Shown here piece after piece: positions 8,153-34,375 of a stretch of DNA of 64,000 nt. A program made the position numbers and the translations under genes. The notes beneath the pieces are model-generated. The model had not been told where the DNA came from, did no database searches, and saw nothing but the letters and a program-made list of their open reading frames with translations. The first letter of the stretch is position 1. Each line of letters starts with the position of its first letter. Origin of the DNA: an uncultured Caulobacter sp. (GTDB lineage Bacteria; Pseudomonadota; Alphaproteobacteria; Caulobacterales; Caulobacteraceae); assembly GCA_913776195.1 (NCBI GenBank), contig CAJYMH010000020.1, positions 1 through 64,000 on the forward strand. The letters run 5' to 3'.

Positions 8153-8160
8153 CAGAAGAC

Positions 8161-9834: not shown

Positions 9835-9870
9835 TAATGCGGGATTCAAGCCGCTTCAGCGAATGCCAGA

Positions 9871-9901: not shown

Positions 9902-9927
9902 TTCCGCGGATCTTTCAGGTTTTCAGC

Positions 9928-11778: not shown

Positions 11779-11872
11779 CAGATGAGTTCCGGCTAGGACA
11801 AGCCGGATGCCATGCGCCTTCTCGATCTCTTTGTGAAATATATTATTCTGCTGATATAAGGTCGCCAGACGA

Positions 11873-12775
11873 ATGACGATCGAGACACGCAAGCTCAGAC
11901 ATTTCGCCGCCGTGGCCGACACGCTGCATTTCGGCAGGGCGGCCGAGCGGCTAAACATGACGCAGCCGCCGCTCAGTCAGTCGATCCTGGCTCTGGAACG
12001 GACGCTTGGCGCTCCGCTGTTTGTCCGCACCAAGCGCAGCGTCCGGCTGACGCCCTTCGGCGAGCAGTGGCTGCCGCAGGTCCAGGCTGCGCTGGCGGCC
12101 TTGGACGCCCTACCCGACAGCGCGCATCGCCTGCGCAGCGGCCTTAGCGGCCACCTGTCGTTGTCCTTCGTCAGCACGGCGGACTACAGCGTTTTGCCGG
12201 ACCTCGTACGCCGCTACGCCGAGGCTTTCCCGGAGGTGGATATCCGTTTGGTCGAGGCGACCAGCGACGTGCAGATCCCAGCGATCCTGGCAGGTGAGCG
12301 GCACGCCGGCATCATCATTCCGCCGCACGACAGGATGCTGCCTGCTCCACTCGCCTATCGCCGGCTGGTGTCCGAACCCTTGATCGCCGCCGTTCCAACC
12401 GCCTGGAGCAAAGACGGAACCCCGCCCCAGGAAGCGATCCTGGACGCGCCGCTGATCCTGTTCCCCCGCACTGTCGCACCAGCCTTCCACGATCTGGTGA
12501 CGAGCTACTTCGCCGCCCATGGCCGGACCGCTCGGATCGTGCAGGAGGCGATCCAGATGCAGACCATCATCAGTCTGGTCTCCGCCGGGTTGGGGATCGC
12601 GCTTGTTCCAGCCTCCCTGCGCAACCTGGCGCGGGCCGGAGTACGTTACGTCGAGCTTGAAGCGCCGCCCATGCTTGAAACCGGCGTCGTATGGAGGCGT
12701 GACGACGACACCCCCACCCTACAGGAGATGCTTAAGCTTCTGGCCGGACAGACCGTCGTCGGAACCTCGACTTAG
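11873..12775 (+). CDS. LysR-family transcriptional regulator
   Basis: A 300-residue LysR regulator. The N-terminal winged helix-turn-helix is plain ([20 protein letters not shown], then [16 protein letters not shown]). The effector-binding domain spans about residues 90-295 and has the usual [18 protein letters not shown] segment. It is divergent from ilvD across 94 bases that include an AT-rich stretch at 11831-11860 (TATATTATTCTGCTGATATA), a reasonable place for a shared LysR site. Control of ilvD is inferred from this layout. The effector is unknown. Confidence 0.9.
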
Positions 12776-18414: not shown

Positions 18415-18554
18415 TTCGTAAGCCTCATTCTCAGAATATAGCAAAACGCGCAAGTCACCGCGTTATCGGATAGCGACTTTGGCGCGCCGCTTGGAGGAAA
18501 GCCAGTGCTATCCCGATATATGGGAGAAAATTGCCATATGAGGAGCATCTCTCA
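18415..18554. promoter_or_regulatory. Divergent rhamnose promoter region with dyads
   Basis: A 140-base region lies between the iclR and rhmD starts. Visible dyads are ATTCTCAGAAT (18427-18437, perfect around a central C), CGTTATCGGATAGCG (18461-18475, one mismatch between arms) and TCCCGATATATGGGA (18511-18525, four-base outer arms). Any of these could be the IclR site. AGGAG at 18541-18545 is the rhmD ribosome site. Confidence 0.5.
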
Positions 18555-19748
18555 ATGAGCCGGCTACCTAAGATCAAGCATGTCCGCGCCTTCGTCGTGA
18601 AAAACGACGGCAAGGGCGGCGGCGCTGACTATCATGATCAGGGCGACGGCCACTGGATCGATGACCACATCGCCACTCCCATGGCGAAGTACCCCGAGTA
18701 CCGCCAGAGCCGCCGCAGCTTCGGCATCAACGTGCTGGGCACGCTGGTGGTGGAGATCGAGGCCGAGAACGGCGTCGTCGGCTTCGCGGTGACCACCGGC
18801 GGCGAGCCCGCCGCCTACATCGTCGAGAAGCACCTGGCCCGCTTCCTCGAGGGACGCGATCCGACCGAGGTCGAGAAGATCTGGGATCAGATGTACTTCT
18901 CGACCCAGTACTATGGCCGCAAGGGTCTCGTGGTGAACGCCATCTCGGGCGTCGATCTGGCGCTTTGGGACCTTCTGGGCCGCCTGCGTCAGGAGCCTGT
19001 GTTCGCCATGCTCGGCGGCGCGGTGCGCGACGAGCTGCAGTTCTACGCCACCGGCGCCCGGCCGGACCTGGCCAAGAAGATGGGCTTCATCGGGGGCAAG
19101 ATGCCCCTCCACCACGGCCCGGCCGAAGGTGATGAAGGCCTGAAGAAGAATCTGGCTGAACTCGAAGCCATGCGGAACGCGTGCGGCGACGACTTCTGGC
19201 TGATGTTCGACTGCTGGATGGCGCTGGACCTGAACTACGCGACCAAGCTGGCCCACGCCGCCAATAAGTACGGGCTGAAGTGGATCGAGGAATGCCTCAG
19301 CCCCGACGACTACTGGGGCTATCAGGCGCTAAAGAAGAACGCGCCCGACGGCATGCTGGTCACCACAGGCGAGCACGAAGCCACCCGCTGGGGCTTCCGC
19401 ATGCTGCTGGAGATGGAATGCTGCGACATCATCCAGCCCGATGTGGGCTGGTGCGGCGGCGTCACCGAGCTGATCAAGATCTCCGCCATGGCCGACGCCA
19501 AGGGCGTGCTGATGATCCCCCACGGCTCCTCGGTCTACAGCTACCACTTCGTGGTGACGCGCCATAACAGCCCGTTCGCCGAGTTTCTGATGATGGCGCC
19601 GAAGGCCGACGAGGTCGTGCCGATGTTCCATCCGCAACTGATCGGCGAACCCGTCCCGGTGAACGGTCGCTTGAAGGTTCCCGACACCCCCGGCTTCGGC
19701 GTCGAGCTGAACCGCGACATCGCTCTCCATCGCCCTTACGCGCGATAA
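18555..19748 (+). CDS. rhmD: L-rhamnonate dehydratase
   Basis: An enolase-superfamily dehydratase of 397 residues that converts L-rhamnonate to 2-keto-3-deoxy-L-rhamnonate. Diagnostic RhmD segments are [19 protein letters not shown] near the start, metal-ligand regions [20 protein letters not shown] and [11 protein letters not shown], and the acid-base region QPDVGWCGG followed by [12 protein letters not shown]. The start ATG 18555 has AGGAG nine bases upstream; an upstream TTG at 18531 was not chosen. It is the first gene of a six- or seven-gene plus-strand operon and carries the dehydration step of the rhamnose pathway. Confidence 0.95.
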
Positions 19749-19767
19749 CCAAAAGGCTCCTCCCCTA

Positions 19768-20631
19768 ATGAAGCTTCTACGCTATGGCCCCAAGGGCCAG
19801 GAAAAGCCGGGCCTGCTGGATGCGGAAGGCCGCATCCGCGACCTGTCCGGCCACGTGACGGACATCACCCCCGCCCAGCTGTACGGCGAGGAACTCGCCA
19901 AGCTGAAGGCGATCGACCCGACCACCCTGCCCGTCGTCGAGGGCGAGCCCCGCTACGGCGTGCCGGTGAACGGCAGCCGCAAGTTCATCGCCATCGGTCT
20001 GAACTTCGCCGACCACGCCGCTGAATCGAACCTGCCGGAGCCGTCCGAGCCGGTGGTCTTCATGAAGGCCATCTCCTGCCTGAGCGGCCCGAACGACACC
20101 GTCGTCATCCCGCGCGGTTCGCTGAAGACCGACTGGGAAGTCGAACTGGGCATCGTCATCGGCAAGCCCGCCTCCTACGTCGAGCAGGCCGACGCCCTCG
20201 ACCACGTGGCCGGCTACGTCCTGATCAACGACGTGTCGGAACGCGCCTTCCAGACGGAACGCGGCGGCACCTGGGACAAGGGCAAGGGTTGCGACACCTT
20301 CGGCCCCGTCGGCCCCTGGATCGTGACCACCGATGAGGTCGGCGACGTCCAGAAGCTGGACATGTGGCTCGACCTGAACGGCAAGCGCATGCAGACAGGC
20401 AACACCAAGACCATGATCTTCGGCGTGGCCGAGATCGTCTCCTACGTCAGCCAGTTCATGACGCTGGAGCCAGGCGACCTGATCACCACCGGCACGCCTC
20501 CGGGCGTGGGCCTCGGCCAGAAGCCGGAGCCGTTCTACCTGAAGGCCGGCGACGTCATGACGCTCGGCATCGAAAAGCTCGGCCAGCAGCGCCAAGACGT
20601 CGTCGCCTGGTCGAAGGAAGCCGTTTCGTGA
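19768..20631 (+). CDS. FAH-family 2,4-diketo-3-deoxy-L-rhamnonate hydrolase
   Basis: A fumarylacetoacetate-hydrolase-family enzyme of 287 residues. Metal-ligand acids are seen in LKTDWEVELGIVIG and in VLINDVSERAFQ, with MTLEPGDLITTGTPPGVGLG near the end. In known non-phosphorylative L-rhamnose pathways of the dehydrogenase/hydrolase type (Sphingomonas LRA6), this enzyme cleaves 2,4-diketo-3-deoxy-L-rhamnonate to pyruvate and L-lactate. The match to that pathway rests on its neighbours rhmD and the SDR gene, with which it overlaps by four bases (GTGA), and on the lactate dehydrogenase across the divergent promoter. Confidence 0.88.
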   Translation: MKLLRYGPKGQEKPGLLDAEGRIRDLSGHVTDITPAQLYGEELAKLKAIDPTTLPVVEGEPRYGVPVNGSRKFIAIGLNFADHAAESNLPEPSEPVVFMKAISCLSGPNDTVVIPRGSLKTDWEVELGIVIGKPASYVEQADALDHVAGYVLINDVSERAFQTERGGTWDKGKGCDTFGPVGPWIVTTDEVGDVQKLDMWLDLNGKRMQTGNTKTMIFGVAEIVSYVSQFMTLEPGDLITTGTPPGVGLGQKPEPFYLKAGDVMTLGIEKLGQQRQDVVAWSKEAVS

Positions 20632-21377
20632 GCGTGTACCAAGGACGTTTCACCGGCCGCACCGCGGTCGTGACCGGCGGCGCTTCGGGCCTGGGCAAGG
20701 CCGCCGCCGCGCGCATCATCGCCGAGGGCGGCCAGGTCTGCTTGTGGGATCTGAACGCCGAAGCCCTGGCCAAGGCCGCGGAAGAGATCGGCGCCAAGCA
20801 CGTTGTCGCTCTCGACGTCGCCGATCCGACCGCCGTCGCCGCGGCCGCCAAGGAGTCCAACGAGACCTTGGGCCGCATCGACATCCTGGTCGCTTCGGCC
20901 GGCATCACCGGCGCCACCGTGCCGGTGCAGGACTTCCCGATCGACAGCTGGCGGCGCGTCATCGACATCAACCTGAACGGCGTCTTCTACTGCTGCCGCG
21001 AAGTGGTGCCCTTCATGCTGGCCAACGGCTACGGCCGCATCGTCAACGTGGCCTCTGTCGCCGGCAAGGAAGGCAACCCGAACGCCAGCGCCTATTCGGC
21101 GTCGAAGGCGGGCGTCATCGGCCTGACCAAGTCGCTGGGCAAGGAGCTGGCGGGCAAGGGCGTCATCGCCAACAGCCTGACGCCGGCCACCTTCGAGAGC
21201 CCGATCCTGGAGCAGCTTCCGCAAAGTCAGGTCGACTACATGCGCTCGAAGATCCCCATGGGCCGCCTGGGCGAAGTGCACGAAAGCGCCGCCATGGTCT
21301 GCTTCATGGCGTCCGAGGAATGCAGCTTCACGACCGCCTCGACCTTCGATACGTCGGGCGGACGGACGACCTATTAG
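20628..21377 (+). CDS. 2-keto-3-deoxy-L-rhamnonate 4-dehydrogenase (SDR)
   Basis: A 249-residue short-chain dehydrogenase. The start GTG 20628 overlaps the hydrolase TGA, with AAGGAAG upstream at seven bases, so translation is coupled. The nucleotide motif is VVTGGASGLGKAAAARI, and catalytic Ser/Tyr/Lys are in NVASVAGKEGNPNASAYSAS followed by K. In the Sphingomonas-type L-rhamnose pathway (LRA5), such an enzyme oxidises C4 of 2-keto-3-deoxy-L-rhamnonate to give the substrate of the preceding hydrolase. The specific substrate is inferred from context. Confidence 0.87.
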   Translation: MSVYQGRFTGRTAVVTGGASGLGKAAAARIIAEGGQVCLWDLNAEALAKAAEEIGAKHVVALDVADPTAVAAAAKESNETLGRIDILVASAGITGATVPVQDFPIDSWRRVIDINLNGVFYCCREVVPFMLANGYGRIVNVASVAGKEGNPNASAYSASKAGVIGLTKSLGKELAGKGVIANSLTPATFESPILEQLPQSQVDYMRSKIPMGRLGEVHESAAMVCFMASEECSFTTASTFDTSGGRTTY

Positions 21378-21387
21378 GGGCCTGCTG

Positions 21388-22290
21388 GTGGACCGCGAAC
21401 CGCGCATCGTCGATCCGCACGTCCACCTCTGGGACCTGTCGCGCGCCCGCTATGGGTGGCTGCAGGATGATCCCCTGCCGAACAATCCGGCGGGGGACAT
21501 GTCCCCCATCGCGCATCGCGACTATCTGCTGAAAGACTATCTGGCGGATGTCGGCCCCTGGCGCGTCGAGAAGATCGTCCACGTCGAGGCAGGCATGCCG
21601 CGCGGCCTGCAGCTGGGCGAAACCGACTGGCTTCAGGCCATCGCTGATCAGCAGGGCTATCCCATCGGGATTGTCGCCGGGGCGGACATGCTCGATCCCG
21701 ATCTCGACGCCCTGCTGGAGGCCCACGCCCAGCGCGCCAACGTACGCGGCGTGCGCCAGATCATCTGCTGGCACGCCGATCCGCTGAAGACCTATAACGA
21801 CCGCGATCTGCTGGACGATCCGGTTTGGGAGGCCGGTTTCGCCCTGCTCGCCAAACACAAGCTATCCTTCGATCTGCAGCTCTATCCCACGCAGATGACC
21901 AAGGCCGCCGCGCTCGCCGCACGCCATCCGGACATCCCGATGATCGTCAATCACGCAGGCCTGCCGACGGATCGAGACGAGGCCGGCATGACGGCGTGGC
22001 GCGACGGTCTGCGCCTGCTGGCCGCGCATCCGCAGGTGTCGATCAAGATCTCCGGCCTCGGCATCACCGACCGCGCCTGGACGCTCGACTCCATCCGCCC
22101 CATCGTCCTGGAATGCATCGACATCTTCGGGGCGGACCGGGCCATGTTCGCCAGCGACTTCCCGGTCGAGAAGGTGCACGGCGGCTTTGACGCCTTCTAC
22201 GCCGCCTTCCATGCCATCACCGCCGATTTCGGCAACACAGAACGTGACAACCTCTTCGCGGCGAACGCGGAGCGGATCTACCGCATCTGA
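21388..22290 (+). CDS. Amidohydrolase-2 family L-rhamnono-lactonase
   Basis: A 300-residue TIM-barrel metal hydrolase of the amidohydrolase-2 / COG3618 type, the family that contains L-rhamnono- and L-fucono-lactonases. The metal motif DPHVHLWDL is at residues 9-17, VNHAGLPTDRDE lies in the middle, and MFASDFPVEK with the catalytic Asp is near the C-terminus. The start is GTG 21388 with AGGGG seven bases upstream. It lies ten bases after the SDR gene. In this operon it should hydrolyse L-rhamnono-1,4-lactone to L-rhamnonate, the step between the dehydrogenase at 16821-17582 and rhmD. Confidence 0.88.
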   Translation: MDREPRIVDPHVHLWDLSRARYGWLQDDPLPNNPAGDMSPIAHRDYLLKDYLADVGPWRVEKIVHVEAGMPRGLQLGETDWLQAIADQQGYPIGIVAGADMLDPDLDALLEAHAQRANVRGVRQIICWHADPLKTYNDRDLLDDPVWEAGFALLAKHKLSFDLQLYPTQMTKAAALAARHPDIPMIVNHAGLPTDRDEAGMTAWRDGLRLLAAHPQVSIKISGLGITDRAWTLDSIRPIVLECIDIFGADRAMFASDFPVEKVHGGFDAFYAAFHAITADFGNTERDNLFAANAERIYRI

Positions 22291-22350: not shown

Positions 22351-23610
22351 ATGGTCATCGAGACCGACGCCGCGCACACCAAGGGCGGCCTGGCCACGCC
22401 CGCGGGGAACCTGAAGGGTCCCCTCGCCTTCGCTATCGCCTGCTTCCTGATCTGGGGGCTCGCCTACGGCCTGCTGGACGTGCTGAACAAGCACTTCCAG
22501 GAGACTCTGAGCATTAGCCAGGCCGACAGCGCCTGGCTGCAGATCGCCTATTTCGGCGCCTATCTGTTGCTGTCTATTCCCGCCGGCATGCTGCTTCACG
22601 CGCGGGGCTACAAGTTCGGCATCGTCACCGGCCTGATCGTCACGGCCATCGGCGCCCTGCTGTTCATCCCGGCCGCCGGCATGGGCCAGTTCGCGCCTTT
22701 CGTCGGCTCAATGTTCGTGCTTGCCGCCGGGCTGTGCGTGCTGGAGACCTCGGCAGACACCTACGTCAACGTGTTGGGCGATCCGGCCAAGGCGCCGCAG
22801 CGCCTGAACCTGGCGCAGTCGTTCAACGCTCTGGGCGTGTTCTTCGGCCCCCTGATCGGCGGCGCGGTGTTCTTCAGCCCGACCACCACCGAGGCCCTGG
22901 GCGGCGCGACCCGGTCGATCCAGATCGTCTACGGCTTGATCGCCGCCGCCGTCGTCATCTTCGCCTTGGCGGTCTGGCGCGCACGCCTGCCGGAAACGGG
23001 TCTGGCCGACCACGGTGAAAGCAGCGGCGACGGCCCCGTCCGCCCGCTGTCGCAACAGCCGCACTTCGTCGCCGGCGTCATCACCCAGGCGCTCTACATC
23101 GGCGCCCAGGTCGGCATCGGCGCCTATTTCATCAATCTGGTGACCCACAACTGGCAGGGCCTGTCCTCGCAACAGGGCGCCTTCATGCTGTCCCTCGCCG
23201 CCATCGGCTATCTGGTCGGTCGTTTCGCCGCAACGGCCCTGCTGCTGCGTATTCAGCCGCGCGTGCTGCTGACGGCCTACGGGATCATCAATGTGATCCT
23301 GACCCTCATCGTCGCCGCCGGCATCGACAAGGTCTCGCCCATCGCCCTGATCGCGGTGTTCTTCTTCATGTCGACCATGTTCGCGACCATCTTCGCCCTG
23401 GGCACCACCGGCCTGGGCGCCGCGACCAAGAAGGCCTCGTCCCTGATGGTCATGGCCATCGGCGGCGGCGTCCTGCTGCCCTGGCCCATGGGCAAGGTCG
23501 CCGACCTCTACGGCGCCAATATCGCTTTCCTGATGCCGGCCGCCTGCTTCATGGTCGTCGCCTGGTACGGCTGGAAAGGCGCGGGCCTAGGCCGCCAGGA
23601 GGCGATCTGA
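22351..23610 (+). CDS. FucP-like sugar:proton symporter (MFS), probable L-rhamnose permease
   Basis: A 419-residue major facilitator with twelve predicted membrane segments, of the FucP (L-fucose:H+ symporter) type. FucP-like signatures are CFLIWGLAYGLLDVLNKHFQ in helix 1, VLETSADTYVNVLGDP and QSFNALGVFFGPLIGG. The start ATG 22351 has AGGAG seven bases upstream. It sits at the end of the rhamnose enzyme run and overlaps the next gene by one base (TGATG). L-rhamnose, a 6-deoxy sugar like fucose, is the expected substrate by context. Confidence 0.9.
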   Translation: MVIETDAAHTKGGLATPAGNLKGPLAFAIACFLIWGLAYGLLDVLNKHFQETLSISQADSAWLQIAYFGAYLLLSIPAGMLLHARGYKFGIVTGLIVTAIGALLFIPAAGMGQFAPFVGSMFVLAAGLCVLETSADTYVNVLGDPAKAPQRLNLAQSFNALGVFFGPLIGGAVFFSPTTTEALGGATRSIQIVYGLIAAAVVIFALAVWRARLPETGLADHGESSGDGPVRPLSQQPHFVAGVITQALYIGAQVGIGAYFINLVTHNWQGLSSQQGAFMLSLAAIGYLVGRFAATALLLRIQPRVLLTAYGIINVILTLIVAAGIDKVSPIALIAVFFFMSTMFATIFALGTTGLGAATKKASSLMVMAIGGGVLLPWPMGKVADLYGANIAFLMPAACFMVVAWYGWKGAGLGRQEAI

Positions 23611-25895
23611 TGCGTCTGAGGATCGCCCTGGCCGCCTTCACCCTGCTCGTCGCGCCCGCCGCCGTCATGGCGCAGGCTAATTCCGCCCACGCCGCGGCCG
23701 TGGCCCCGGCGGCGAAGATCGACCGCAAGGCCCTGGTGTCGCGGCACAATCCGGTCCTCACCGCCGTCGACCGCCATGCGCCGATCATGCTGGGCAACGG
23801 CGATATCGGCTTCACCGCCGACATCACCGGCCTGCAGACGTTTCCCGAGCAATACTCCGAACTGGCGCCGCTGCTGACCATGGCCCAATGGGCCTGGCAC
23901 AGCTTCCCGAACCCCAAGGGCTACACCGAGCAGAGCGGCCTGGTGAACGTGTCGGTCTCCGGGCGGGGCGAGCAGCCCTACGCCTGGATGAAGTCGTGGA
24001 ACGACGCGGAGACCAACCCAGCCTTCACCTGGCTGCGCGCCAATCCGCATCGCTTCTCCCTGGGCCGCGTCGGCCTGATCTTCGCCGACGGCCAGGCGCT
24101 CGACTTCGCCAAGGTGTCGACGCCGCACCAGACGCTGGACCTGTGGACCGGAACGCTGAGCAGCCGCTTCACCTACGACGGCCAGCCGGTGACGGTGACC
24201 ACGCGCGTCCATCCCGAACTCGACATGGTGATGGTCGAGGTCGCCTCCCCCCTCGTCGCCAGACGCGGGCTGGGCGTGCAGGTGCGCTATCCGACCGTGA
24301 ACCCGGCGATCAATCCGGACCCGACCAGCTTCGACAAGCAGGGCGCGCAAAGCCTTGCCGTCCTGTCCGCGAAGGCCGGCAAGACACGCATCCGCCGCAC
24401 GATCGACGAGACGACCTACTTCTCGACCATCACCGCCAACGGTCGCGTGAGGCCGGCCGGGGAGACCGGTTTCCAGGTGGCCGCTTCGGGCGGCCAACGC
24501 CTGAAAGTCATGGTCCGCTTCGACGAGGCCGACAACACCGCCGCCTCGCCGGCCTACGCCGACGGCGTGAAGGCGACAACCGCACGCTGGAACGACTTCT
24601 GGAGCAAGGGCGGCGCGGTCGACTTCTCCGGCAGCACCGATCCCCGCGCCAAGGAGTTGGAGCGTCGCGTGGTGCTGTCCCAGTACCTGTCGGCCGTGAA
24701 CGGCGCCGGCGAACTGCCGCCGCAGGAAGAAGGCCTCTTCTCCAACAGTTGGTACGGCAAGTTCCATCTGGAGATGCACCCCTGGCATTCCGGCTGGCAG
24801 GCCATGTGGGGCCACGCCGACCTTCTGGAGCGCAGCCTGCCCTGGTACGTCTCCAACCTGCCGAACGCCCGCGCCGAAGCCGCGCGGCATGGGGTCAAGG
24901 GCGCCTGGTGGCCGAAGATGGCCGGGCCGGAGGGCCGCAACAGCCCCAGCCTCGTCTCCCCCTTCATCATGTGGCAGCAGCCGCACCCGATCCTGATGGC
25001 CGAACTGGTCTGGCGGGCGGAGAAGAACCCGGCGGTGCTGAAACGCTACGGCGAGGTCGTGGAGTCCACCGCCGACCTGCTGGCCTCCTGGCCGCTGGAG
25101 CAGAACGGCCGCCTGAACCTGGGCCCGCCCCTGATCCCGGCGCAGGAGAACTACGATCCCCTGACCACGGTGAACCCGACCTTCGAGGTCGAATACTTCC
25201 GCTGGGCGCTGCAGACCGCCCAGGCTTGGCGTGAACGTCAGGGCCAGGCGCGCCGCGCTGATTGGGATGCGGCGCTGGACAAGATCGCCCCGCCTGCGAC
25301 CAGGGACGGCCTTTACCTGCCGGTGGAGAACGTGCCGGACTTCTGGACCACGGCGATGTCTGACGCTTGCCGCAACCACGCCACAGCGCCGCAATGCAAG
25401 AACCGCGACCACCCGTCGTTCCTGATGGCTTATGGCTTCATCCCGGGTGAGCGCATCGACCGCGACGCCATGGCCCGCACCTTGGCGGCCGTCGAGGCGA
25501 ATTGGGACGTGCGCCAGACCTGGGGCTGGGACTTCCCGATGATGGCAATGACAGCCGCCCGCCTGGGCGAGCCGGAAAAGGCTATCGACTGGTTGTTCGC
25601 AGATCTGAGGAACAACCAGTGGGGCGTCACAGGTATGACCCCGCGCGTCCATTTGGACGAGCATGCGGATGATCTGGTGCCCGCCTCCGCCGGCGCTGGC
25701 GGTGTGAAGATGACGGTCAAGCCGGACGGCGCGGGATACCGCCGCGCGGCCGAGACCTATTTCCCATCCAATGGCTCGCTGCTGATGGCGGTGGGACTGA
25801 TGGCCGGCGGCTGGGACGGCTCGACTGGCCACGCGCCCGGCTTCCCCAAGACCGGCTGGACCGTGCGCGTCGAAGGCCTGACGCCCGCGCCCTGA
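23610..25895 (+). CDS. Six-hairpin glycosidase-like protein, paralogue B
   Basis: A 761-residue secreted paralogue of the protein at 4290-6521, with the same blocks: MLGNGDIGFTADITGLQTF, PPQEEGLFSNSWYGKFHLEM then HPWH, GPEGRNSPS, MWQQPHPILMAEL, and RQTWGWDFPMMAMTAARLG. A Sec signal peptide ends near AAVMAQA (residue 23). The start overlaps the permease stop by one base, with AGGAGG seven bases upstream, so it is translationally coupled to the rhamnose permease. That coupling suggests it produces the imported sugar, perhaps by releasing L-rhamnose or a rhamnose-containing oligomer. This is inference; no biochemical family is recognised. Confidence 0.83.
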   Translation: MRLRIALAAFTLLVAPAAVMAQANSAHAAAVAPAAKIDRKALVSRHNPVLTAVDRHAPIMLGNGDIGFTADITGLQTFPEQYSELAPLLTMAQWAWHSFPNPKGYTEQSGLVNVSVSGRGEQPYAWMKSWNDAETNPAFTWLRANPHRFSLGRVGLIFADGQALDFAKVSTPHQTLDLWTGTLSSRFTYDGQPVTVTTRVHPELDMVMVEVASPLVARRGLGVQVRYPTVNPAINPDPTSFDKQGAQSLAVLSAKAGKTRIRRTIDETTYFSTITANGRVRPAGETGFQVAASGGQRLKVMVRFDEADNTAASPAYADGVKATTARWNDFWSKGGAVDFSGSTDPRAKELERRVVLSQYLSAVNGAGELPPQEEGLFSNSWYGKFHLEMHPWHSGWQAMWGHADLLERSLPWYVSNLPNARAEAARHGVKGAWWPKMAGPEGRNSPSLVSPFIMWQQPHPILMAELVWRAEKNPAVLKRYGEVVESTADLLASWPLEQNGRLNLGPPLIPAQENYDPLTTVNPTFEVEYFRWALQTAQAWRERQGQARRADWDAALDKIAPPATRDGLYLPVENVPDFWTTAMSDACRNHATAPQCKNRDHPSFLMAYGFIPGERIDRDAMARTLAAVEANWDVRQTWGWDFPMMAMTAARLGEPEKAIDWLFADLRNNQWGVTGMTPRVHLDEHADDLVPASAGAGGVKMTVKPDGAGYRRAAETYFPSNGSLLMAVGLMAGGWDGSTGHAPGFPKTGWTVRVEGLTPAP

Positions 25896-25944: not shown

Positions 25945-27387
25945 ATGACGACCTCCCGCCGCGACGCGCTCAAGGCCCTTCTGGCCGCCCCCGCCGCCGG
26001 GGCCGCCCTCGCCTCCGCTCCCGCCGTGCGGGCTCAGGCCGCGGCGTCGACCGCTGAGGGCGGTGAGGCCCGCTGGCCGGCTCCGAACACAGCCCCGCCC
26101 TCGACGCAGGAAACGCCCCCTCCCGCCAAGCCAGCGTGGTCCGGCCCTGTGCCGCTGGAATGGGTGGACCCCAAGACCAACCATCGCATCCGCCGTGTCT
26201 CGCCCGACGGCGGCGGCGGCAAGCCTTACTTCTACAAGAACATGTTCCTGTCGGGCGGCGACCTGATGGTCATCTCCTCGCCCGAGGGAATCTCGACCGT
26301 TGACCTGCGCACCTGGGGGGTGAAGCCGCTGGTGAAGGACCCCAAGGCCGATCTGATGTTCACCGGCCGCAAGACGCGGACGGTCTATTACTCGATCAAC
26401 GATCCCGTCGAAGGCCAGACGACCGAGCAAGGCCGAACCATACAAGCGATCGACGTGGATAGCGGCAAGACGCGAATGATCTGCAAGCTCGCCAATGGCC
26501 GCATCAACTCGGTGAACGCCGACGAGACCCTGCTTCTGGGCTTCGCGGAGTATGGCGCGCAACCGTTGCAGCCCCGCGTCGAGGATCCCCGCAACCGCCG
26601 CTTCGACCAGGCCGAATACGCCGCCAACGGCCCGGACGGCAAGCCGCTGAACTTCGCCCGCGCCAAGGGCGTGCGGATGCTGCAGCGCTGGGCCGCGCGC
26701 TATCCGATGGAGATTTTCGTCGTCGACGTGAAGACCGGCCAGCGCCGCGTGATCCACAAGACCAACGAATGGATCGGCCACACCCAGTTCTCGCCCACCG
26801 ACCCGCAGCAGATCATCTTCTGCCATGAGGGGCCGTGGCATCGCGTCGACCGCATGTGGGCCATCCGCGCCGACGGCTCGGGGCTGCGCAAGACACACCA
26901 GCGCACGATGAACTTCGAGATCTTCGGCCACGAGTGGTTCAGCCCGGACGGAAAGCAGGTGCACTACGACCTGCAGACCCCGCGTGGTCAGGTGTTCTGG
27001 GTCGCTTCAGTCAATCTTGAGACCGGCAAGCGCGTCTGGCGCCGGGTCGAGCAGAACGACTGGTCGGTGCACTATAACGTCTCGCCGGACGGGACCCTGT
27101 TCGCGGGCGACGGCGGCGACGCCGACATGGTCGCCCACGCCCAAGACGGCAAATGGCTGAAGCTGCTGCGGCCCGAGGCGGTCGTCGACGCCGACCCGAG
27201 CAGCGATCAGGCCGAGTTCATCGACACGCAGTACATGCGCTCCGAACCGCTGGTCGATATGTCGAACCATGACTACCGGCTGGAGCCGAATCTGACCTTC
27301 ACCCCCGACGGCAAGTGGATCGTGTTCGTGTCCAACATGCACGGCAAGAACCACGTCTACGCGGTCGAGGTCACGCGCGCCGCCTGA
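25945..27387 (+). CDS. ogl: Oligogalacturonate lyase (PL22)
   Basis: A 480-residue beta-propeller lyase that cleaves short oligogalacturonides to unsaturated monomers. Family signatures are NEWIGHTQFSPTDP (His279), IIFCHEGPWHRVDRMWAI (His294 and His299), NFEIFGHEWFSPDGK (His329) and NDWSVHYNVSPDG (His376). Unlike the usual cytoplasmic Ogl it carries a twin-arginine signal (TTSRRDALKALLAAPAAG, cleaved near residue 31) and a proline-rich stretch at about 45-65, so it should work in the periplasm. The start ATG 25945 has AAGGA seven bases upstream. It lies 49 bases after paralogue B, probably in the same transcript. Confidence 0.92.
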   Translation: MTTSRRDALKALLAAPAAGAALASAPAVRAQAAASTAEGGEARWPAPNTAPPSTQETPPPAKPAWSGPVPLEWVDPKTNHRIRRVSPDGGGGKPYFYKNMFLSGGDLMVISSPEGISTVDLRTWGVKPLVKDPKADLMFTGRKTRTVYYSINDPVEGQTTEQGRTIQAIDVDSGKTRMICKLANGRINSVNADETLLLGFAEYGAQPLQPRVEDPRNRRFDQAEYAANGPDGKPLNFARAKGVRMLQRWAARYPMEIFVVDVKTGQRRVIHKTNEWIGHTQFSPTDPQQIIFCHEGPWHRVDRMWAIRADGSGLRKTHQRTMNFEIFGHEWFSPDGKQVHYDLQTPRGQVFWVASVNLETGKRVWRRVEQNDWSVHYNVSPDGTLFAGDGGDADMVAHAQDGKWLKLLRPEAVVDADPSSDQAEFIDTQYMRSEPLVDMSNHDYRLEPNLTFTPDGKWIVFVSNMHGKNHVYAVEVTRAA

Positions 27388-27470: not shown

Positions 27471-27674
27471 AACCGAATTGGCCAGGGACGCTTCCGGGCG
27501 ACGCTCGCGCCCGACCAAGCTAATTGCCTATAAAGCTTTGCCTTTTACAGGATCGCACGGAATTCACCGCAGAGTGGCAGTCGGTGACATCGCGCACGTA
27601 TTGCAAAAATCGAGAAGCTGTTGCAATAAGTGGAACGCTGTCTTTGCGAATATGCGCGACAGTGTACCAAAAAA

Positions 27675-27688
27675 TGACACCGGTGCCA
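27675..27688. promoter_or_regulatory. Candidate LacI-type operator, TGACACCGGTGCCA
   Basis: A palindrome with a single mismatched pair, extended by matching flanks AA and TT. It lies 33 bases before the receptor start, in a position comparable to the site 21 bases before the other receptor, and shares TG..ACCGGT..CA with 9821-9834. Confidence 0.6.
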
Positions 27689-27720
27689 TTCGCGGCTTCG
27701 GGAAGGGGAGAAAGAATTTC

Positions 27721-30444
27721 ATGCGTCGCTCCACTCACAATCGGATTCTGTGCGCAGCCAGCGTGTCGGTTCTCGCGCTCATGGCCGCCCCCGCTTTCGC
27801 TCAGTCTGACGCCGCCGCGCCTGTCGCGACCGCCCAGACCGGCGATGACGGCGTGACCGAAGTCGAAGACATTGTTGTCACCGGCTTCCGCTCCAGCCTG
27901 CAGCAAGCGCTGAACATCAAGCGCGAAGAGGCCGGCGCGGTCGACACCATCCTCGCCGAAGACATCGCCGACTTCCCGGACCTGAACCTCGCCGAGTCGA
28001 TCCAGCGCCTGCCGGGCGTCACCATCGACCGCGAAGGCGGCCAGGGCCGTACGATCTCGGTCCGTGGTCTGGGCGCCGACTTCACCCGCACCCGCATCAA
28101 CGGTCTGGAGGCCCAGGCCGCTTACGGCAGCAACCGCAGCCGCGGCTTCGACTTCTCGATGTTCGCCTCGGAGCTCTTCAACAGCATCACCGTCCGCAAG
28201 ACGCAGTCGGCCGAGATCGAAGAGGGCTCGCTGGGCGCGACCGTCGATCTGCAGACCGCCCGTCCTCTGGACTACAATCGCAGCGGCCTGACCTCGGCCC
28301 TGTCGGTCCAGGGCTCGTACAACGACCTGTCGGAAAAGACCGTCCCGCGTCTGGCCGGCCTGCTGAGCTGGGCGAATGAAGACCGCACCTTCGGCGCCCT
28401 GATCTCGGTGGCGTACTCGGAGCGTTCGCCGATCAGCGAAAGCTTCAACACCACCCGCTGGCAGTCCGGCGACCCGACAGCCGCCTACGGCGCCGGCAAC
28501 AACTTCGCCAACTGTATCCCCTGCACCACCACGGCGCAGCGCAACGACGTCCTTCGCGCCTATTATCCGCGGATCCCGCGCTACACCTTCGGCACCTTTG
28601 ACGAAGATCGCCTGGGCGTGACCAGCTCGCTGCAATGGCGTCCGACCGAGCGCACCGAAGTCGTCGTCGACTTCCTGTGGTCGCGCTTCAACCAGGAAGC
28701 CGAAAGCCCGAACATCGAGGCCATCAGCTTCAGCCGCGCGGCCGGCGGCGTTCGTGAGACCATCGTCCGCGACTACGCCATCGACGCGTCCAAGAACATC
28801 CTCTCCTACGGCGTGTTCGACCAGGTCGATATTCGTTCGGAGAACGGCTTCACCCGTGACGAGAGCAACTTCTACCAAGGCTCCCTGAACGTGAAGCACG
28901 AGTTCAGCGACCGCCTGCGCGGCCGCCTGAAGCTGGGCGCCAACCGCTCTGAAGCCCGCACCCCGTTCAACGTCGCCTACATGTTCGACGCAAACAACCA
29001 GAACGGCTTCACCTACGACTTCCGCGGCGACGACCGCCTGCCGATGATCAACTACGGCTTCGACGTCTCGAAGGGTGATCGCTTCACCCTGACCGAATGG
29101 CGCCGCAGCACCGGCGGTGCGAACTTCGAGAACCAGGTCGCGGCCGGCGCGCTCGAATACGACCTGAACGAGTCGATAACCTTCAAGGCCGGCGGCGAGT
29201 ACCGCACCTACGGCTTCGACACCTTCGGCATGCAGCAGGCGGTCTCCGCCCTGTCGGGCGCCGATCGCATCGTCGGCGTTGGTAATGTGGGCAAGGTCGT
29301 CAGCATTGACGGCGGCCTGGACATCCCGAATGGCTCGAACCTGAGCTTCATCGTTCCGGACATCCAGAAGCTGAACGGCGTCGTGGGCCAGTTCAACGCC
29401 CCGCTGGTGCCGACCTACAACGGCATCCGCGAAGTGGAAGAAACCGACAAGGGCCTGTTCGCCCAGGCGGACTTCAACACCACGTTCCAGGACATGACCG
29501 TCCGCGGCAACGTCGGCGTCCGCTACGCTCGCACCGACATCGATTCCTCGGGCTTCCTGGACACCAACTACGTCACCGTCCAGAACAAGTACGACGACAT
29601 TCTTCCGTCCTTCAACCTGGCCATCGAGCCGCGTGACGACCTGGTCGTACGCATCGGCGCGGCCAAGGTGATGTCGCGTCCGGCCCTCGGCGATCTGACC
29701 CCGGGCGGCAGCCTGTCGACCCCGACCCGTCGCGTGTCCTACGGCAACCCGCTGCTGGATCCGTTCCGCGCCACCAACTACGACCTGTCGGTGGAATGGT
29801 ACTTCCAGAGCGAAGGCCTGCTGGCCGCCGCGGTGTTCTACAAAGACATCGACAGCTTCATCACCACCGTCACCGAAGTGGTGCCGTGGCGCAGCCTGGG
29901 CCTGCCGGACAACCTGCTGGCCGGCACCCCGGCCTCGCCGGATGAAGACTTCGAAGTCACCCGCAAGATCAACGGCAATGGCGGTTCCCTGCACGGAATC
30001 GAGCTGCAGTACCAGCAGCCCTTCACCTTCCTGCCAGGCATCGGCAAGGACTTCGGCTTCATCGGCAACTTCACCTATGTCGACTCCGAGGTCGACTACG
30101 GCGCCTACGGAAAGAACCGTCTGACGGGCCAGTCGAAGTACGCCTTCAACACCACGCTGTACTACGAGAAGGGCCCGATGCAGGCCCGCGTCTCGGGCGC
30201 CTACCGCAGCCAGTATCTGCTGGCCTATCCGGGCGGCAACAACAACAGCGAGGAAGGCGTGCGCAGCACGTTCAATCTAGACGCCTCGGCCTCCTATCAG
30301 ATCACCGACAACCTGACGGCGTCGATCGAGGCCCTGAACCTCACGGACGCCTACAACGACCGTTACGTCGACGAGACGAACCGGGTGTCGAACTACCGCC
30401 ACTTTGGCCGCGAGGTCATGGTCGGAATGCGCTGGAAGTACTGA
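27721..30444 (+). CDS. TonB-dependent receptor (Xanthomonas/Caulobacter type)
   Basis: A 907-residue outer-membrane receptor. The chosen start is ATG 27721, with AAGGGGAG ten bases upstream and a signal peptide ending MAAPAFAQ at about residue 26; the open frame extends further upstream without a start site. The plug begins EDIVVTGFRSSLQQALNIKR and includes LPGVTIDREGGQGRTISVRG and SITVRKTQSAEIEEGSLGAT, typical of the TonB-Xanth-Caul family (TIGR01782) that imports plant-derived oligosaccharides. The barrel ends with the aromatic terminus VMVGMRWKY. An operator-like palindrome lies just upstream and a strong terminator follows. The likely ligand is a pectin or rhamnogalacturonan fragment. Confidence 0.93.
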   Translation: MRRSTHNRILCAASVSVLALMAAPAFAQSDAAAPVATAQTGDDGVTEVEDIVVTGFRSSLQQALNIKREEAGAVDTILAEDIADFPDLNLAESIQRLPGVTIDREGGQGRTISVRGLGADFTRTRINGLEAQAAYGSNRSRGFDFSMFASELFNSITVRKTQSAEIEEGSLGATVDLQTARPLDYNRSGLTSALSVQGSYNDLSEKTVPRLAGLLSWANEDRTFGALISVAYSERSPISESFNTTRWQSGDPTAAYGAGNNFANCIPCTTTAQRNDVLRAYYPRIPRYTFGTFDEDRLGVTSSLQWRPTERTEVVVDFLWSRFNQEAESPNIEAISFSRAAGGVRETIVRDYAIDASKNILSYGVFDQVDIRSENGFTRDESNFYQGSLNVKHEFSDRLRGRLKLGANRSEARTPFNVAYMFDANNQNGFTYDFRGDDRLPMINYGFDVSKGDRFTLTEWRRSTGGANFENQVAAGALEYDLNESITFKAGGEYRTYGFDTFGMQQAVSALSGADRIVGVGNVGKVVSIDGGLDIPNGSNLSFIVPDIQKLNGVVGQFNAPLVPTYNGIREVEETDKGLFAQADFNTTFQDMTVRGNVGVRYARTDIDSSGFLDTNYVTVQNKYDDILPSFNLAIEPRDDLVVRIGAAKVMSRPALGDLTPGGSLSTPTRRVSYGNPLLDPFRATNYDLSVEWYFQSEGLLAAAVFYKDIDSFITTVTEVVPWRSLGLPDNLLAGTPASPDEDFEVTRKINGNGGSLHGIELQYQQPFTFLPGIGKDFGFIGNFTYVDSEVDYGAYGKNRLTGQSKYAFNTTLYYEKGPMQARVSGAYRSQYLLAYPGGNNNSEEGVRSTFNLDASASYQITDNLTASIEALNLTDAYNDRYVDETNRVSNYRHFGREVMVGMRWKY

Positions 30445-30544: not shown

Positions 30545-31933
30545 CTAGCCCAGGCGACCGCCCAGGCCGACGATGTTCTTGGAGTCGGTGACCTTGGGCG
30601 CCTTGCCGTCCAGGCTGTCGATCCGGCAGTCGGTGAAGCGCCAGTTCTCGGCGTTGGCGATGGAGCCGGACTCGCGCACGTCCCAGTCCAGCCGCTCGAA
30701 GGTGAAGTCCCGCAGCGGCGCCTCGGGATAGGCGGCGGCTTCGAAGCCGATCTTGGCGCCGACAGCCTTGATGTTCGACATGCTCACATCGCGGATGCGC
30801 GGCAGGCCCTTCTCGCGCGGCACCGGCGTGGCCAGGGCGCGCCAGTGATCCGGAATGTCGGCGATCCCCTTGGGGATCTCGGCATAGCTGTAGTTCGGGT
30901 ACCAGTTCAGGTTCACCCGCACGATCGTAGCCACATCCTGCATCACGATGTCTCGTAGGCGGATATTGGAGATCACTCCGCCGCGCGTGTGGCCTGACTT
31001 GAAGAAGACCCCCAGCGGCGTCGGGTACTCGATGCGCAGGCCGGACACCTCGATGTCCTCGAACCCGCCGGAGGTCTCGCTGCCGAAGGTCATGCCTGCC
31101 AGAGCGTCGCGGACCACGCAGTCCTTGATCCGCACCTGGCGGCAGGGTCGCGCCACTCGCAGGCCGTCCCAGTCGCGTCCAGCCTTGATGCACAGGGCGT
31201 CGTCATTCACCGACAGATCACAACGCTCGACCTGAACCCGCTCGGAGGAGTCGATGTCGATGCCGTCGGTTGACGGTCCCCTGCCCCCGATGTTGTTACG
31301 GATGATCAGGTCCGAAACCTTCACGTCGCGCGAATAGCAGACGTGGACCGTCCAGAAGCCGGCGCGGGTCAGGTTAAGGCCCGAGACCTCCACATTGTCG
31401 GAGTCATAGACGTGGATCAGGCGCGGACGACGACAGTCATAGTCAGCGGCCCAGCGCAGGCCGCGCGGGTCGTAGTCGCGACGCATGGCGTAATAGCTGT
31501 CCCAGAACGCCTTGCCGTCGCCATCGACGACGCCTTCACCGGTTATCTTGGCGCCGCGCTGGCGATAGACGTTCAGCAGGGCCGCCGGCCAGTCCATCTC
31601 GATCCCCGCCACACGGGTGCGAATGGTCGGATAGGCCGAGATGGCGGTCAGTCCGCGCACCGTGGCGCCGCGCTCGATCACCAGCGTGACCGCCGACTTC
31701 ACGAACAGCGAGCCGGTCAGATAGACGCCGGGCTTCAGCAGCACTGCACCGCCGCCCTGGGCCGCAGCTGCGTCGATGGCCGCCTGAATGGCCCGCGTGT
31801 CGATGGTACGCCCGTCGCCGACCGCGCCGAAATCGGAGGCCAGGAACGTGCGGCCGCCCGTCTGGGCCAGGGCCGGAGCCGCCGAAGCCAAGGCCCCGCT
31901 CAGGCCCAGTTGCAGAAGGGATCGGCGATGCAT
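30545..31933 (-). CDS. GH28-family enzyme, third copy, Tat signal
   Basis: A 462-residue GH28 beta-helix protein. The start ATG 31933 has GGAGG six bases upstream. The N-terminus MHRRSLLQLGLSGALASAAP is a twin-arginine signal. The fold is introduced by ASDFGAVGDGRTIDTRAIQA. Catalytic-region motifs are STDGIDIDSS (for NTD), NDDALCIKAG (paired Asp) and VFFKSG (for the R-x-K step). The usual GHG is replaced by LAGMTFGSE, so the conserved His is absent. This variant pattern suggests a substrate other than homogalacturonan, perhaps a rhamnogalacturonan linkage. It is divergent from the GH105-DUF4861 gene across 198 bases. Confidence 0.85.
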   Translation of the reverse strand: MHRRSLLQLGLSGALASAAPALAQTGGRTFLASDFGAVGDGRTIDTRAIQAAIDAAAAQGGGAVLLKPGVYLTGSLFVKSAVTLVIERGATVRGLTAISAYPTIRTRVAGIEMDWPAALLNVYRQRGAKITGEGVVDGDGKAFWDSYYAMRRDYDPRGLRWAADYDCRRPRLIHVYDSDNVEVSGLNLTRAGFWTVHVCYSRDVKVSDLIIRNNIGGRGPSTDGIDIDSSERVQVERCDLSVNDDALCIKAGRDWDGLRVARPCRQVRIKDCVVRDALAGMTFGSETSGGFEDIEVSGLRIEYPTPLGVFFKSGHTRGGVISNIRLRDIVMQDVATIVRVNLNWYPNYSYAEIPKGIADIPDHWRALATPVPREKGLPRIRDVSMSNIKAVGAKIGFEAAAYPEAPLRDFTFERLDWDVRESGSIANAENWRFTDCRIDSLDGKAPKVTDSKNIVGLGGRLG

Positions 31934-32131
31934 TGGAAGCCTCCGGTACGCTTGAATGCAGAGGCGCAGGCGCAGGCGCATCGCGGAGCGCGATGGCGCG
32001 CATCGAGCGCTTCCCACATTCTGTTCTTTCGTCTCACGATAGCGGACGATATGGTCAAGTCCAAGGCGTCGACGGCCAAACAGTACGTCTCGACATCGAC
32101 GCGCTCCCCCAGCGTCCCCGGAGGAAGATAC

Positions 32132-34375
32132 ATGCCATTGCTCCGCAGCGCCGGTCTCGGCCTGACTCTCGCCCTGACCACGACCGCGTTGCTGTCCAGC
32201 CCAGTCCTAGCGCAAACCGCCGCCGGCGCCCTGCCGCCCGGCGTGGAATCGGAATGGCTGAAGGCGCGCCCGCGCCCGTCGCTGAACGTGAACCCTTCCC
32301 GCTTGCCCTCTCGCGCCGAGACCCTGGCGGCGATCGAGTACGTGGCTTCATCGCAGATCGCGGCCATGGCCAAGGAGCCGATCGCCCTATCGACCGGCAG
32401 CAACCTGACCCAGATGTCCTCCAACTGGGTGGCGGCGACGTTCTATGTGGGCGCCGCGCGCCTGGCGCGGGTGTCGGATGATCCGGAGACCCTGCGCTTC
32501 CTGACGGCCGTGGCCGAGCACTACAACTACAGCGTCCGGGGCGCCCGCTCCGGCCCGACCATGCTGAACGCCGACGACATCACCATCGGCGACCTCTACG
32601 AAGAGCTCTATTCCCGGCGTGGACAGGAAGGCGTTCTGATGCCCCTGCGCCAGCGTCTGGACTGGCAGGTCCCGCACCTGAACCGCGCGACCGAGACGCC
32701 AGCCCTGGTCTGGTGGTGGGCTGACGCGCTCTACATGGCGCCCCCGGTTCTGGCGCGGATGTCGGCCATCACCGGCGATCCCAAATACCTCGCGGCCGCC
32801 GACAAGGAATGGCGCCGCACGGCGGCCCGCCTGTGGGTTCCGGAGATAGGCCTCTTCCTGCGTGACGAGCGGTTCAAGGATCGCCGTAGCACCAACGGCC
32901 AGCCGATCTACTGGGCCCGCGCCAACGGCTGGGTGATGGGCGGCCTGGCCCGCTGGCTGGAATCCATGCCGGCCGACTATCCGGACCGCGCCTACTACGT
33001 GGACATCTTCCAGAAGATGGCCGCCCGCGTCGCCGCCCTGCAGCAGGACGACGGCCTGTGGCGCGCAAGCCTTCTGGATCCCAAGGCGCATCCGGAAGCG
33101 GAGACGTCGGGTTCGGTGTTCTTCGTCTACGCCCTGGCCTGGGGCATCAATCACGGCCTGCTGGACCGCCAGACCTACCTGCCGCACGTACAGAAGGGCT
33201 GGGCCGCCCTGAACCGCACCGTCCTGCCCAACGGCCTGGTCGGCGCGGCGCAGAAGACCGGCGACCAGCCTGTCTCCACCAGGCCGGAAGAGACAGGCCT
33301 CTATGCGTCAGGGACCTATATCCTGGCCGGGCTGGAGGTCATGGACCTGCATGGTCCGGTCCAGAGCCTGCCGGAAGCCGAACCCGCCCGCGACGCGCCG
33401 GAGGTCATCGCGGCAACTACGCCAACCCCGCCCGCCCCGGTCACCATCGTTGGTGAGGAGGAGAAGCGTCGTCGCGAAGCGGAAATGAAGGCCACCGCCG
33501 CCCTCGCCTACGATCCTGCTGTTCTGAAACGCCCCTCGACCATCGAGCGCCTGACCCCGCCGCCGGCGGACCAGCAGATGCCCCGCGCCGTGGTGCGCTT
33601 CGCCCCGGATCGCCTAGATGATCTGCTGTGGGAGAACGACAAGGTCGCGCACCGCATCTACGGCCCGGCGCTGGAAGCGCGCGAGTCCCCGTCGGGCTCC
33701 GGCATCGACGTGTGGGCCAAGCGGGTGCGATACTCGTACATGGACCGCCAGCTGAAGTTCCCTAACTACCACATCGACCGTGGCGAGGGCCTGGACTTCT
33801 ACGACGTCGGGCGCGGCCGGGGCGCCGGCGGCCTGGGCGTCTGGTACGACAACAAGCTGTGGACCAGCCGTAACTTCTCCAAGTACCGCATCGACAAAAC
33901 CGGCGGCGACGAGGCGAAGTTCAGCGTCGACTACCGCCCCTGGCCGGTGGACGTGACCCGCAAGGTCTGGGAGACGCGCGACTTTTCCCTGCCGCTGGGC
34001 TCCAGCTTCACGCGCATGACCTCGACGCTGAGCTCCGACACCAAGGAGCCGCTGGTTGTCGGCATCGGCATCTCCAAGCGCCGCAACGACGCGGGCTCCG
34101 GCTTCGTAACCAAGGACGTGAAGGGCGGCCGCCTGATGTTCTGGGAGCCCACCAACCCCGAGCATGGCAGCCTGGGCATCGCCCTCCTGGTTGATCCGGC
34201 CACGGTCGAGGGCTTCACCGAGGACGCCGACAATTACTTGATCCTGGTCCGGGTCACGCCCGGCAAGCCGTTCACCTACTACATGGGCTCCAGCTGGGAT
34301 CGCGGCCTCGACTACCGCAGCCGCGCCGAGTGGGAGACCTTCGTCGCCGGCCAGAAGCTGAGCTTCAAGCCGTAG
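32132..34375 (+). CDS. GH105 unsaturated rhamnogalacturonyl hydrolase fused to DUF4861
   Basis: A 747-residue two-domain secreted protein. The start ATG 32132 has GGAGG seven bases upstream; the reading frame is open further upstream but lacks a start site. The Sec signal peptide ends near PVLAQ (residue 28). Residues 60-405 form a GH105 (alpha/alpha)6 barrel with the probable catalytic Asp198 in LVWWWADALYM and NGQPIYWARANGWVMGGL further on. Family members remove the unsaturated galacturonyl cap left by rhamnogalacturonan lyases. A Pro/Ala/Glu-rich linker (411-484) joins it to a DUF4861 domain (about 485-747) that contains SYMDRQLKFPNYHIDRGEGL and YYMGSSWDRGLDYRSRAEWE. DUF4861 has no assigned function known to me; the fusion implies a linked step on the same substrate. 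Confidence 0.87.
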   Translation: MPLLRSAGLGLTLALTTTALLSSPVLAQTAAGALPPGVESEWLKARPRPSLNVNPSRLPSRAETLAAIEYVASSQIAAMAKEPIALSTGSNLTQMSSNWVAATFYVGAARLARVSDDPETLRFLTAVAEHYNYSVRGARSGPTMLNADDITIGDLYEELYSRRGQEGVLMPLRQRLDWQVPHLNRATETPALVWWWADALYMAPPVLARMSAITGDPKYLAAADKEWRRTAARLWVPEIGLFLRDERFKDRRSTNGQPIYWARANGWVMGGLARWLESMPADYPDRAYYVDIFQKMAARVAALQQDDGLWRASLLDPKAHPEAETSGSVFFVYALAWGINHGLLDRQTYLPHVQKGWAALNRTVLPNGLVGAAQKTGDQPVSTRPEETGLYASGTYILAGLEVMDLHGPVQSLPEAEPARDAPEVIAATTPTPPAPVTIVGEEEKRRREAEMKATAALAYDPAVLKRPSTIERLTPPPADQQMPRAVVRFAPDRLDDLLWENDKVAHRIYGPALEARESPSGSGIDVWAKRVRYSYMDRQLKFPNYHIDRGEGLDFYDVGRGRGAGGLGVWYDNKLWTSRNFSKYRIDKTGGDEAKFSVDYRPWPVDVTRKVWETRDFSLPLGSSFTRMTSTLSSDTKEPLVVGIGISKRRNDAGSGFVTKDVKGGRLMFWEPTNPEHGSLGIALLVDPATVEGFTEDADNYLILVRVTPGKPFTYYMGSSWDRGLDYRSRAEWETFVAGQKLSFKP

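Follow-up and report, generated by a model that had tools for sequence, protein, structure and literature searches.

Which step does the DUF4861 domain perform when it is joined, in a single protein, to a glycoside hydrolase of family 105 (GH105)? The question is raised by a gene found in the window analyzed here, i.e. the 64,000 nucleotide stretch covering positions 1 to 64,000 of contig CAJYMH010000020.1 (assembly GCA_913776195.1), from an uncultured Caulobacter sp. The gene consists of a single uninterrupted frame of 747 codons and codes for a GH105-DUF4861 fusion (positions in Table 1). Pfam detects the GH88/GH105 domain (Glyco_hydro_88, PF07470) with an E-value of 3.9e-70 and 237 bits, against a cut-off of 26.6, and DUF4861 (PF16153) with 5.8e-49 and 167.5 bits, against a cut-off of 22.3. 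As both domains exceed their cut-offs within one frame, the fusion proposed in the first-pass annotation, made from the DNA letters alone, is real, and the limits given there, residues 60-405 and 485-747, roughly match those of Pfam, 94-404 and 491-741.

The DUF4861 half is a short form, matching positions 119-370 of a profile of 380, with the first 118 absent. Long forms matching approximately positions 1-380 were found in other genomes, and further short forms are those of L010 and L011 (L numbers denote the DUF4861 loci of this analysis). The NCBIfam model NF058564 (BT3233 family) is also matched, at residues 481-740, with 201.2 bits, under the equivalog cut-off of 320, and by this score the window protein is not a BT3233 equivalog. 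The linker had been described as a Pro/Glu one, which is roughly right (14 Pro and 9 Glu among 82 residues), but Ala is as common as Pro (14) and a helix is predicted at residues 442-458. In the structure model of the whole protein the predicted local distance difference test (pLDDT) is low at approximately residues 421-470; the predicted template modeling score (pTM) is 0.66, and no domain orientation was read from the model. Judged by eye from the translation, residues 1-28 probably act as an export signal; pLDDT is below 50 at residues 3-36. D198 of the GH105 half is aligned with D143 of YteR, which is taken to be the catalytic aspartate. The source genome, 83.75% complete, contains one match for each of the two families, GH88/105 and DUF4861, both inside this gene.

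A genome collection was scanned with the DUF4861 half, obtaining at least 576 confirmed relatives, and the best 80 loci were used for all the counts out of 80 reported below. This set leans to Alphaproteobacteria, includes six loci shorter than 9 kb and contains DUF4861 throughout by construction. GH105 was called in it by a profile built on the window's own matches, at an E-value of 1e-5, rather than by Pfam, and distances were measured between stop-to-stop frames. GH105 lies ahead of DUF4861 in one frame in 27 of the 80 loci, which belong to Caulobacteraceae, Sphingomonadales, Niveispirillum, Oxalobacteraceae and other Burkholderiales, and one Phycisphaerae. Because of this recurrence, and because the nearest DUF4861 half among the matches listed, that of L027 from Caulobacter segnis, is 93% identical, an assembly artefact is an unlikely origin of the fusion.

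Three further loci of the window's phylum (L003-L005) carry the domains in the opposite order, DUF4861-GH105. By PDB search, the GH105 of L003 is of the YteR type (4wu0, 5.4e-97; YteR, 4.7e-68; 4ce7, 1e-11); since that of the window is 4ce7-like (see below), two dissimilar GH105 types have been combined with DUF4861, each in its own order. When 90 DUF4861 domains were placed on a tree, a minimum of six changes was required for the GH105-DUF4861 label, at least four of them forced by starred branches. This is a quick tree, from which L071 was omitted as partial and where L012, L010, L090, L009 and L005 were flagged as long branches, and it cannot separate gain of the fusion from its loss. DUF4861 is not fused to GH105 in 60 of the 90 rows, most of which correspond to frames of approximately 310-470 aa.

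Other partners were also detected. DUF4861 is fused to a pectinesterase in L104 (412-2655, minus strand; one locus scanned), where a GH105-like open reading frame (ORF) adjoins, while L108 and L109 agree with this fusion in length and DUF4861 position only; it is fused to GH2 in L156 (one locus scanned). In L086, from Phycisphaerae, BNR_4, GH105 and DUF4861 follow each other in one frame of 1144 aa (7346-10777, plus strand). Separately, a GH105-GH28 fusion was observed immediately following a DUF4861 gene in L091 (10856-13492, plus strand).

Within this set, GH105 shares a frame with DUF4861, in the order of the window, in 27 loci; it lies within 5 kb of DUF4861 in 34 and at 5-10 kb in 5, and was not seen in 14, some of which are short contigs. 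The clustering for which the first-pass annotation advised a survey is found as far as GH105 is concerned, with 66 of 80 loci fused or within 10 kb. In Bacteroidota, the phylum of L090, a GH105-like ORF occurs in 13 of 20 DUF4861 stretches of up to 19 kb, and GH88/105 is found within 10 kb of at least 38 of 76 DUF4861 places, about one being expected by a rough calculation. DUF4861 is present in 55 of 247 genomes sampled from this phylum and in 10 of 398 from the window's phylum. GH88/105 accompanies it in 54 of the 55, against 33 of the other 192 (p 4e-30), and in 10 of the 10, against 34 of the other 388 (Fisher p 1e-10), i.e. in 64 of 65 DUF4861 genomes overall; both p-values are inflated by the shared ancestry of the genomes. 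In a sample of 40 genomes, those of the even-numbered loci, GH88/105 is contained in 39, the exception being the genome of L046.

Genes related to uronate use are frequent in the same neighborhoods. Homologues of KduI were found near DUF4861 in 30 of the 80 loci, of GH28 in 21, of DUF2264 in 15, and of polysaccharide lyases (PL) in 16 (PL22-like), 11 (PL10) and 11 (PL5-like), each family being represented by phmmer homologues of one seed; at least one among GH105, KduI, GH28, PL22, PL10 and PL5 is present in 76 loci. The Bacteroidota neighbors include GH28 (8), GH88 (7), short-chain dehydrogenases/reductases (SDR, 6), pectinesterase (5), KduI (5), alginate-lyase family (4) and PL10 (3), in a tally covering 96 of 147 proteins, 19 of 20 stretches (L150 had no DUF4861 in the ORF pick) and 25 of 77 families listed. 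Since DUF4861 and GH105 are fused in both orders, often adjacent when unfused and co-occurring in genomes, the original suggestion that they are functionally linked and act in one pathway is supported. DUF2264 (L039, 10773-12089, plus strand, and 14 further loci) is a candidate for a further uncharacterised partner of the same step; no paper naming it was found in the open literature.

The substrate shared by the two halves had been thought to be rhamnogalacturonan, with the GH105 half acting as an unsaturated rhamnogalacturonyl hydrolase. This assignment is not supported as it was given: in the PDB, the best matches of the window GH105 are 4ce7, an ulvan unsaturated 3S-rhamnoglycuronyl hydrolase (1.3e-58), and 5noa, a 'Family 88 glycosyl hydrolase' (1.2e-44), far ahead of YteR (1nc5, 8.5e-13 only), so that YteR is not its closest relative among solved GH105 structures, as would be expected of the YteR subtype. 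Of 41 genomes searched, 19 contain PL11 (PF18370), 17 of them over the cut-off; the source genome, at its stated completeness, gave no match. PL11 occurs in 9 of 15 sampled fusion genomes; in one of the nine, G408, it lies 7.8 kb from the fusion, the only case of a distance under 10 kb. In favor of rhamnogalacturonan are the GH28, PL22-like and L-rhamnose genes of the window and the YteR-type GH105 of the reverse fusions (L003 tested). On balance, as the GH105 half is not YteR-like and PL11 was not seen in the source genome and is distant in 8 of 9 fusion genomes, rhamnogalacturonan as the sole substrate was set aside as unproven; the shared step stands on the linkage data. In 28 of the 80 loci, DUF4861 has a GH28, PL22 or PL10 homologue nearby, which suggests pectin as one of several settings within the broader theme of the unsaturated uronate. 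Judging from the PDB neighbors and from general GH105 biochemistry, a beta-linked unsaturated glucuronyl cap, such as in ulvan or arabinogalactan, may be as likely a target as rhamnogalacturonan I.

Structure prediction, advised at the outset for the DUF4861 half, was carried out on the standalone long form of L085 and returned a confident, mostly beta model (pLDDT 91.3, pTM 0.88). The best solved Foldseek matches are GH38 mannosidases (E-value 5.4e-7, TMq 0.46), accompanied by the PL26 exo-rhamnogalacturonan lyase 5xqg (3.2e-4, TMq 0.46, 9% identity, root-mean-square deviation (rmsd) of approximately 10 Å). Over all GH38 and PL26 rows with an E-value below 0.001, TMq is 0.39-0.49, rmsd approximately 8-12 Å and identity 8-11%. 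Other matches are parts of large glycoside hydrolases (GH63, alpha-fucosidase), and a viral structure library gave one protein below 0.001 (2.8e-5, TMq 0.37), which is uninformative. The fold may tentatively be classified as a beta-supersandwich of the galactose-mutarotase-like group, to which the matching region of GH38 and PL26 is presumed to belong. PL26 is a large fungal enzyme, only part of which is overlapped by the predicted fold, and no sequence homology to it was found. Searching the PDB with the DUF4861 profile revealed chance-level matches to gyrase B only, and no sequence-related solved structure. PL4 (PF09284) is an example of a catalytic supersandwich lyase; it is matched in 0 of 200 genomes, nor in any control genome, and hence provided no sequences for comparison.

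Eight residues are nearly invariant in DUF4861: E501, D503, R508, Y510, D526, K530, H547 and D555 are conserved in 97-100% of the rows reaching the column. The alignment comprises 119 rows, spanning both subfamilies and Bacteroidota; domains of 200 residues or less were dropped, and L010, which has G at the position of D503, is not part of the alignment. All of the 112 rows reaching the column of W500 have W there, but the position was not counted as invariant because the truncated L003-L005 (I) and L012 (F) differ. Since charged residues are kept and DUF4861 often stands alone, it is probably an enzyme. Of the two roles envisaged originally, a second catalytic step or a binding module, the former therefore fits better.

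As to the reaction, elimination on a terminal uronate is proposed here tentatively, with less than even confidence. The protein, probably exported, would act on oligosaccharides containing uronate, stripping acidic sugars from their non-reducing end: DUF4861, as a lyase or dehydratase, would create a 4,5-double bond on the terminal uronate, GH105 would then remove the 4,5-unsaturated uronyl residue, and the freed 5-keto-4-deoxyuronate would enter the KduI/KduD pathway. A more specific version, in which a beta-sandwich alone would make DUF4861 a novel uronate eliminase family, and the fusion would be an 'eliminate, then hydrate' uronidase able to take off saturated terminal uronates with no conventional glucuronidase or galacturonidase, is somewhat unlikely.

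The proposal starts from the need of GH105 for an unsaturated uronate, since removal of a 4,5-unsaturated terminal uronyl residue is the well described chemistry of the family. In 29 of the 80 loci, GH105 is present with no PL22, PL10, PL5-like or GH28 homologue nearby. For 11 of these, 50 other proteins were tallied by Pfam, and no polysaccharide lyase appears among 25 of the 33 families listed. The tally includes 50 of 53 picked proteins, the other 3 being scanned separately; L058 gave none, proteins under 250 aa and those of the named clusters were excluded, and not every ORF is necessarily a gene. No evident maker of the unsaturated residue emerges in those loci. A precedent for its formation comes from ulvan breakdown, where the oligosaccharide dehydratase P29_PDnc makes the substrate of a GH105, with proven activity (PMC8511951). 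The need of GH105, the 11 loci with no evident lyase and this precedent together suggest that DUF4861 could be the maker of the double bond.

Several observations weigh against this proposal. For DUF4861, the resources searched returned no activity, no ligand and no solved structure. Homologues of known lyases are present in many loci, as counted above, and a PL22-like gene is among the neighbors of the fusion in the window. BNR_4, which is assumed to be lyase-like, precedes GH105 in the L086 fusion, and if it is so a second eliminase would be redundant there. Five loci without GH105 (L037, L046, L047, L064, L072) have KduI and/or a KduD-like SDR next to DUF4861. Among the 11 loci, candidate lyases are a DUF2264 gene (cluster 11, in 7) and an ORF whose representative has no Pfam family (cluster 22, in 3); in addition, the rest of those genomes, or the 8 unlisted families, could contain a lyase. 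The P29_PDnc precedent concerns the reaction only, since that enzyme was assigned via PL37 and not DUF4861, and the presence of DUF4861 in the loci is by construction.

Membership of DUF4861 in the family of P29_PDnc was considered and rejected, since P29_PDnc is tied to PL37 in the work on that enzyme (PMC8511951). Cluster 22 members lie beside DUF4861 in L060 (10735-12270, minus strand), L040, L048 and L057; if they are genes at all, they are second candidates for the missing step. In the five GH105-less loci, a protein of approximately 770-820 aa is encoded near DUF4861 and the KduI/KduD-like genes; its coordinates, all on the minus strand, are 2497-4959 in L046, 2568-4874 in L047 and 3787-6168 in L072, and none of these three matches a Pfam family, although a PHP-like metallohydrolase motif can be discerned by eye.

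The main rival to elimination is a mutarotase-like step, itself unlikely, in which DUF4861 would follow GH105 or a lyase, acting on the unsaturated or 5-keto-4-deoxy uronate once it is freed, opening or interconverting its ring forms, and passing it to KduI. The mostly beta model and its GH38 and PL26 matches agree with such a role. Moreover, the residue freed from galacturonate or glucuronate is the same, which would explain the two GH105 types, and KduI homologues occur in 8 of the 14 loci without GH105, a finding which fits this step better than elimination. GH88/105 enzymes, on the other hand, hydrate a vinyl ether and already yield the open keto form, and the fusion with a pectinesterase would be unexplained, because a pectinesterase frees no uronate. 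Homology to GalM was tested and discarded: the hhalign probability against 21 aldose epimerases (PF01263) is 0.8% / 0.1%, under 1%, Pfam assigns no Aldose_epim, and no GalM is present among the 50 Foldseek matches listed. KdgF, a metalloprotein distinct from DUF4861 and presumably of cupin fold, would share the unsaturated monouronate substrate if the mutarotase-like step were true, and ring opening is likened to base-catalysed mutarotation in a paper on this protein (PMC11381880).

It is less probable still that DUF4861 is a carbohydrate-binding module, holding GH105 and other enzymes at acidic glycans. Its enzyme partners are varied, as those of binding modules often are, and the linker is flexible, but most of the frames found unfused to GH105 on the tree leave little room for another catalytic domain, and the conserved set (E, D, R, Y, D, K, H, D) is not mainly aromatic. 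A hydrolase of a neighboring bond, either a glycosidase removing a residue which blocks GH105 or an esterase, is improbable: the fold matches do include parts of GH38, GH63 and alpha-fucosidase, and rhamnose release may belong to the locus, given the L-rhamnose genes approximately 10-14 kb upstream, but the catalytic center of those enzymes is presumably mostly located in another domain, which DUF4861 lacks.

In comparison with known systems, most of the N-terminal half aligns with 4ce7, and the GH105 chains matched in the PDB (4ce7, 5noa, YteR 1nc5/2d8l) are 359-445 aa long, the window protein adding to them the linker and DUF4861. The C-terminal half matches the BT3233 family of polysaccharide utilization proteins, though in a short form and below 320 bits. 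The logic proposed for eliminase and GH105, an unsaturated uronate and its subsequent removal, is the same as for P29_PDnc and P33_GH105 in the Formosa ulvan locus; in that system the proteins are separate, the dehydratases are predicted through family PL37 and activity is proven, whereas the window fusion is known from sequence (PMC8511951). No paper on DUF4861, BT3233, PF16153 or IPR032342 was found in open full texts, most subscription papers being outside the search. The fusion places a known kind of enzyme in a new domain architecture; its partner is well supported but biochemically blank. If DUF4861 is an enzyme of the unsaturated-uronate step, it could close a gap in how pectin, arabinogalactan and algal glycans are used by bacteria, and DUF4861 loci could be better annotated. 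The fusion offers a single expressible protein, which makes DUF4861 a concrete target for enzyme assays.

The neighboring genes are reported in Table 1, together with the parts of the fusion. By its gene content the locus appears to process a uronate-containing glycan, of which rhamnose is probably also part, and the GH28 and PL22-like neighbors point to pectin; no scanned window protein reached the NCBIfam cut-off for a specific pectinase. The sole KduI match of the source genome is on a different contig, and a phosphoenolpyruvate carboxykinase gene, downstream of the fusion, looks unrelated to the locus.

Table 1. Features of the window, with the fusion protein and its parts listed before the surrounding genes.
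Feature	Position	Strand	Basis
GH105-DUF4861 fusion protein, 747 aa	32132..34375	+	Open frame, Pfam domains
Candidate N-terminal export signal, residues 1-28	32132..32215	+	By eye
GH88/GH105 domain, residues 94-404	32411..33343	+	Pfam; D198 aligned with YteR D143
Linker, residues 405-486	33344..33589	+	Composition, structure model
DUF4861 domain, residues 491-741, short form	33602..34357	+	Pfam; near-invariant residues
GH28	30545..32017	-	Best NCBIfam models rhamnogalacturonidase and polygalacturonase, all under cut-off
TonB-dependent receptor (TonB-Xanth-Caul)	27478..30444	+	Family match
PL22-like (oligogalacturonate lyase) protein	25945..27387	+	Homology
761-aa protein without Pfam or NCBIfam family	23610..25895	+	Homologues in 14 of 80 DUF4861 loci
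Major facilitator superfamily (MFS) transporter	22351..23610	+	Family match
Non-phosphorylating L-rhamnose pathway genes, as a set	18531..22290	+	NCBIfam
L-rhamnonate dehydratase	18531..19748	+	Over cut-off
2,4-didehydro-3-deoxy-L-rhamnonate hydrolase	19768..20631	+	Over cut-off
Lactonase-like protein	21388..22290	+	Under cut-off

The 761-aa protein gave only a chance-level sequence match in the PDB; by eye, it resembles large alpha/alpha glycosidases, and is possibly a candidate new glycoside hydrolase of such loci. Elsewhere in the window, two genes on the minus strand, at 6518-8152 and 9928-11958, encode a GH43 with GH43_C2 and an IlvD/EDD-type dehydratase, and may mark a second sugar-use region.

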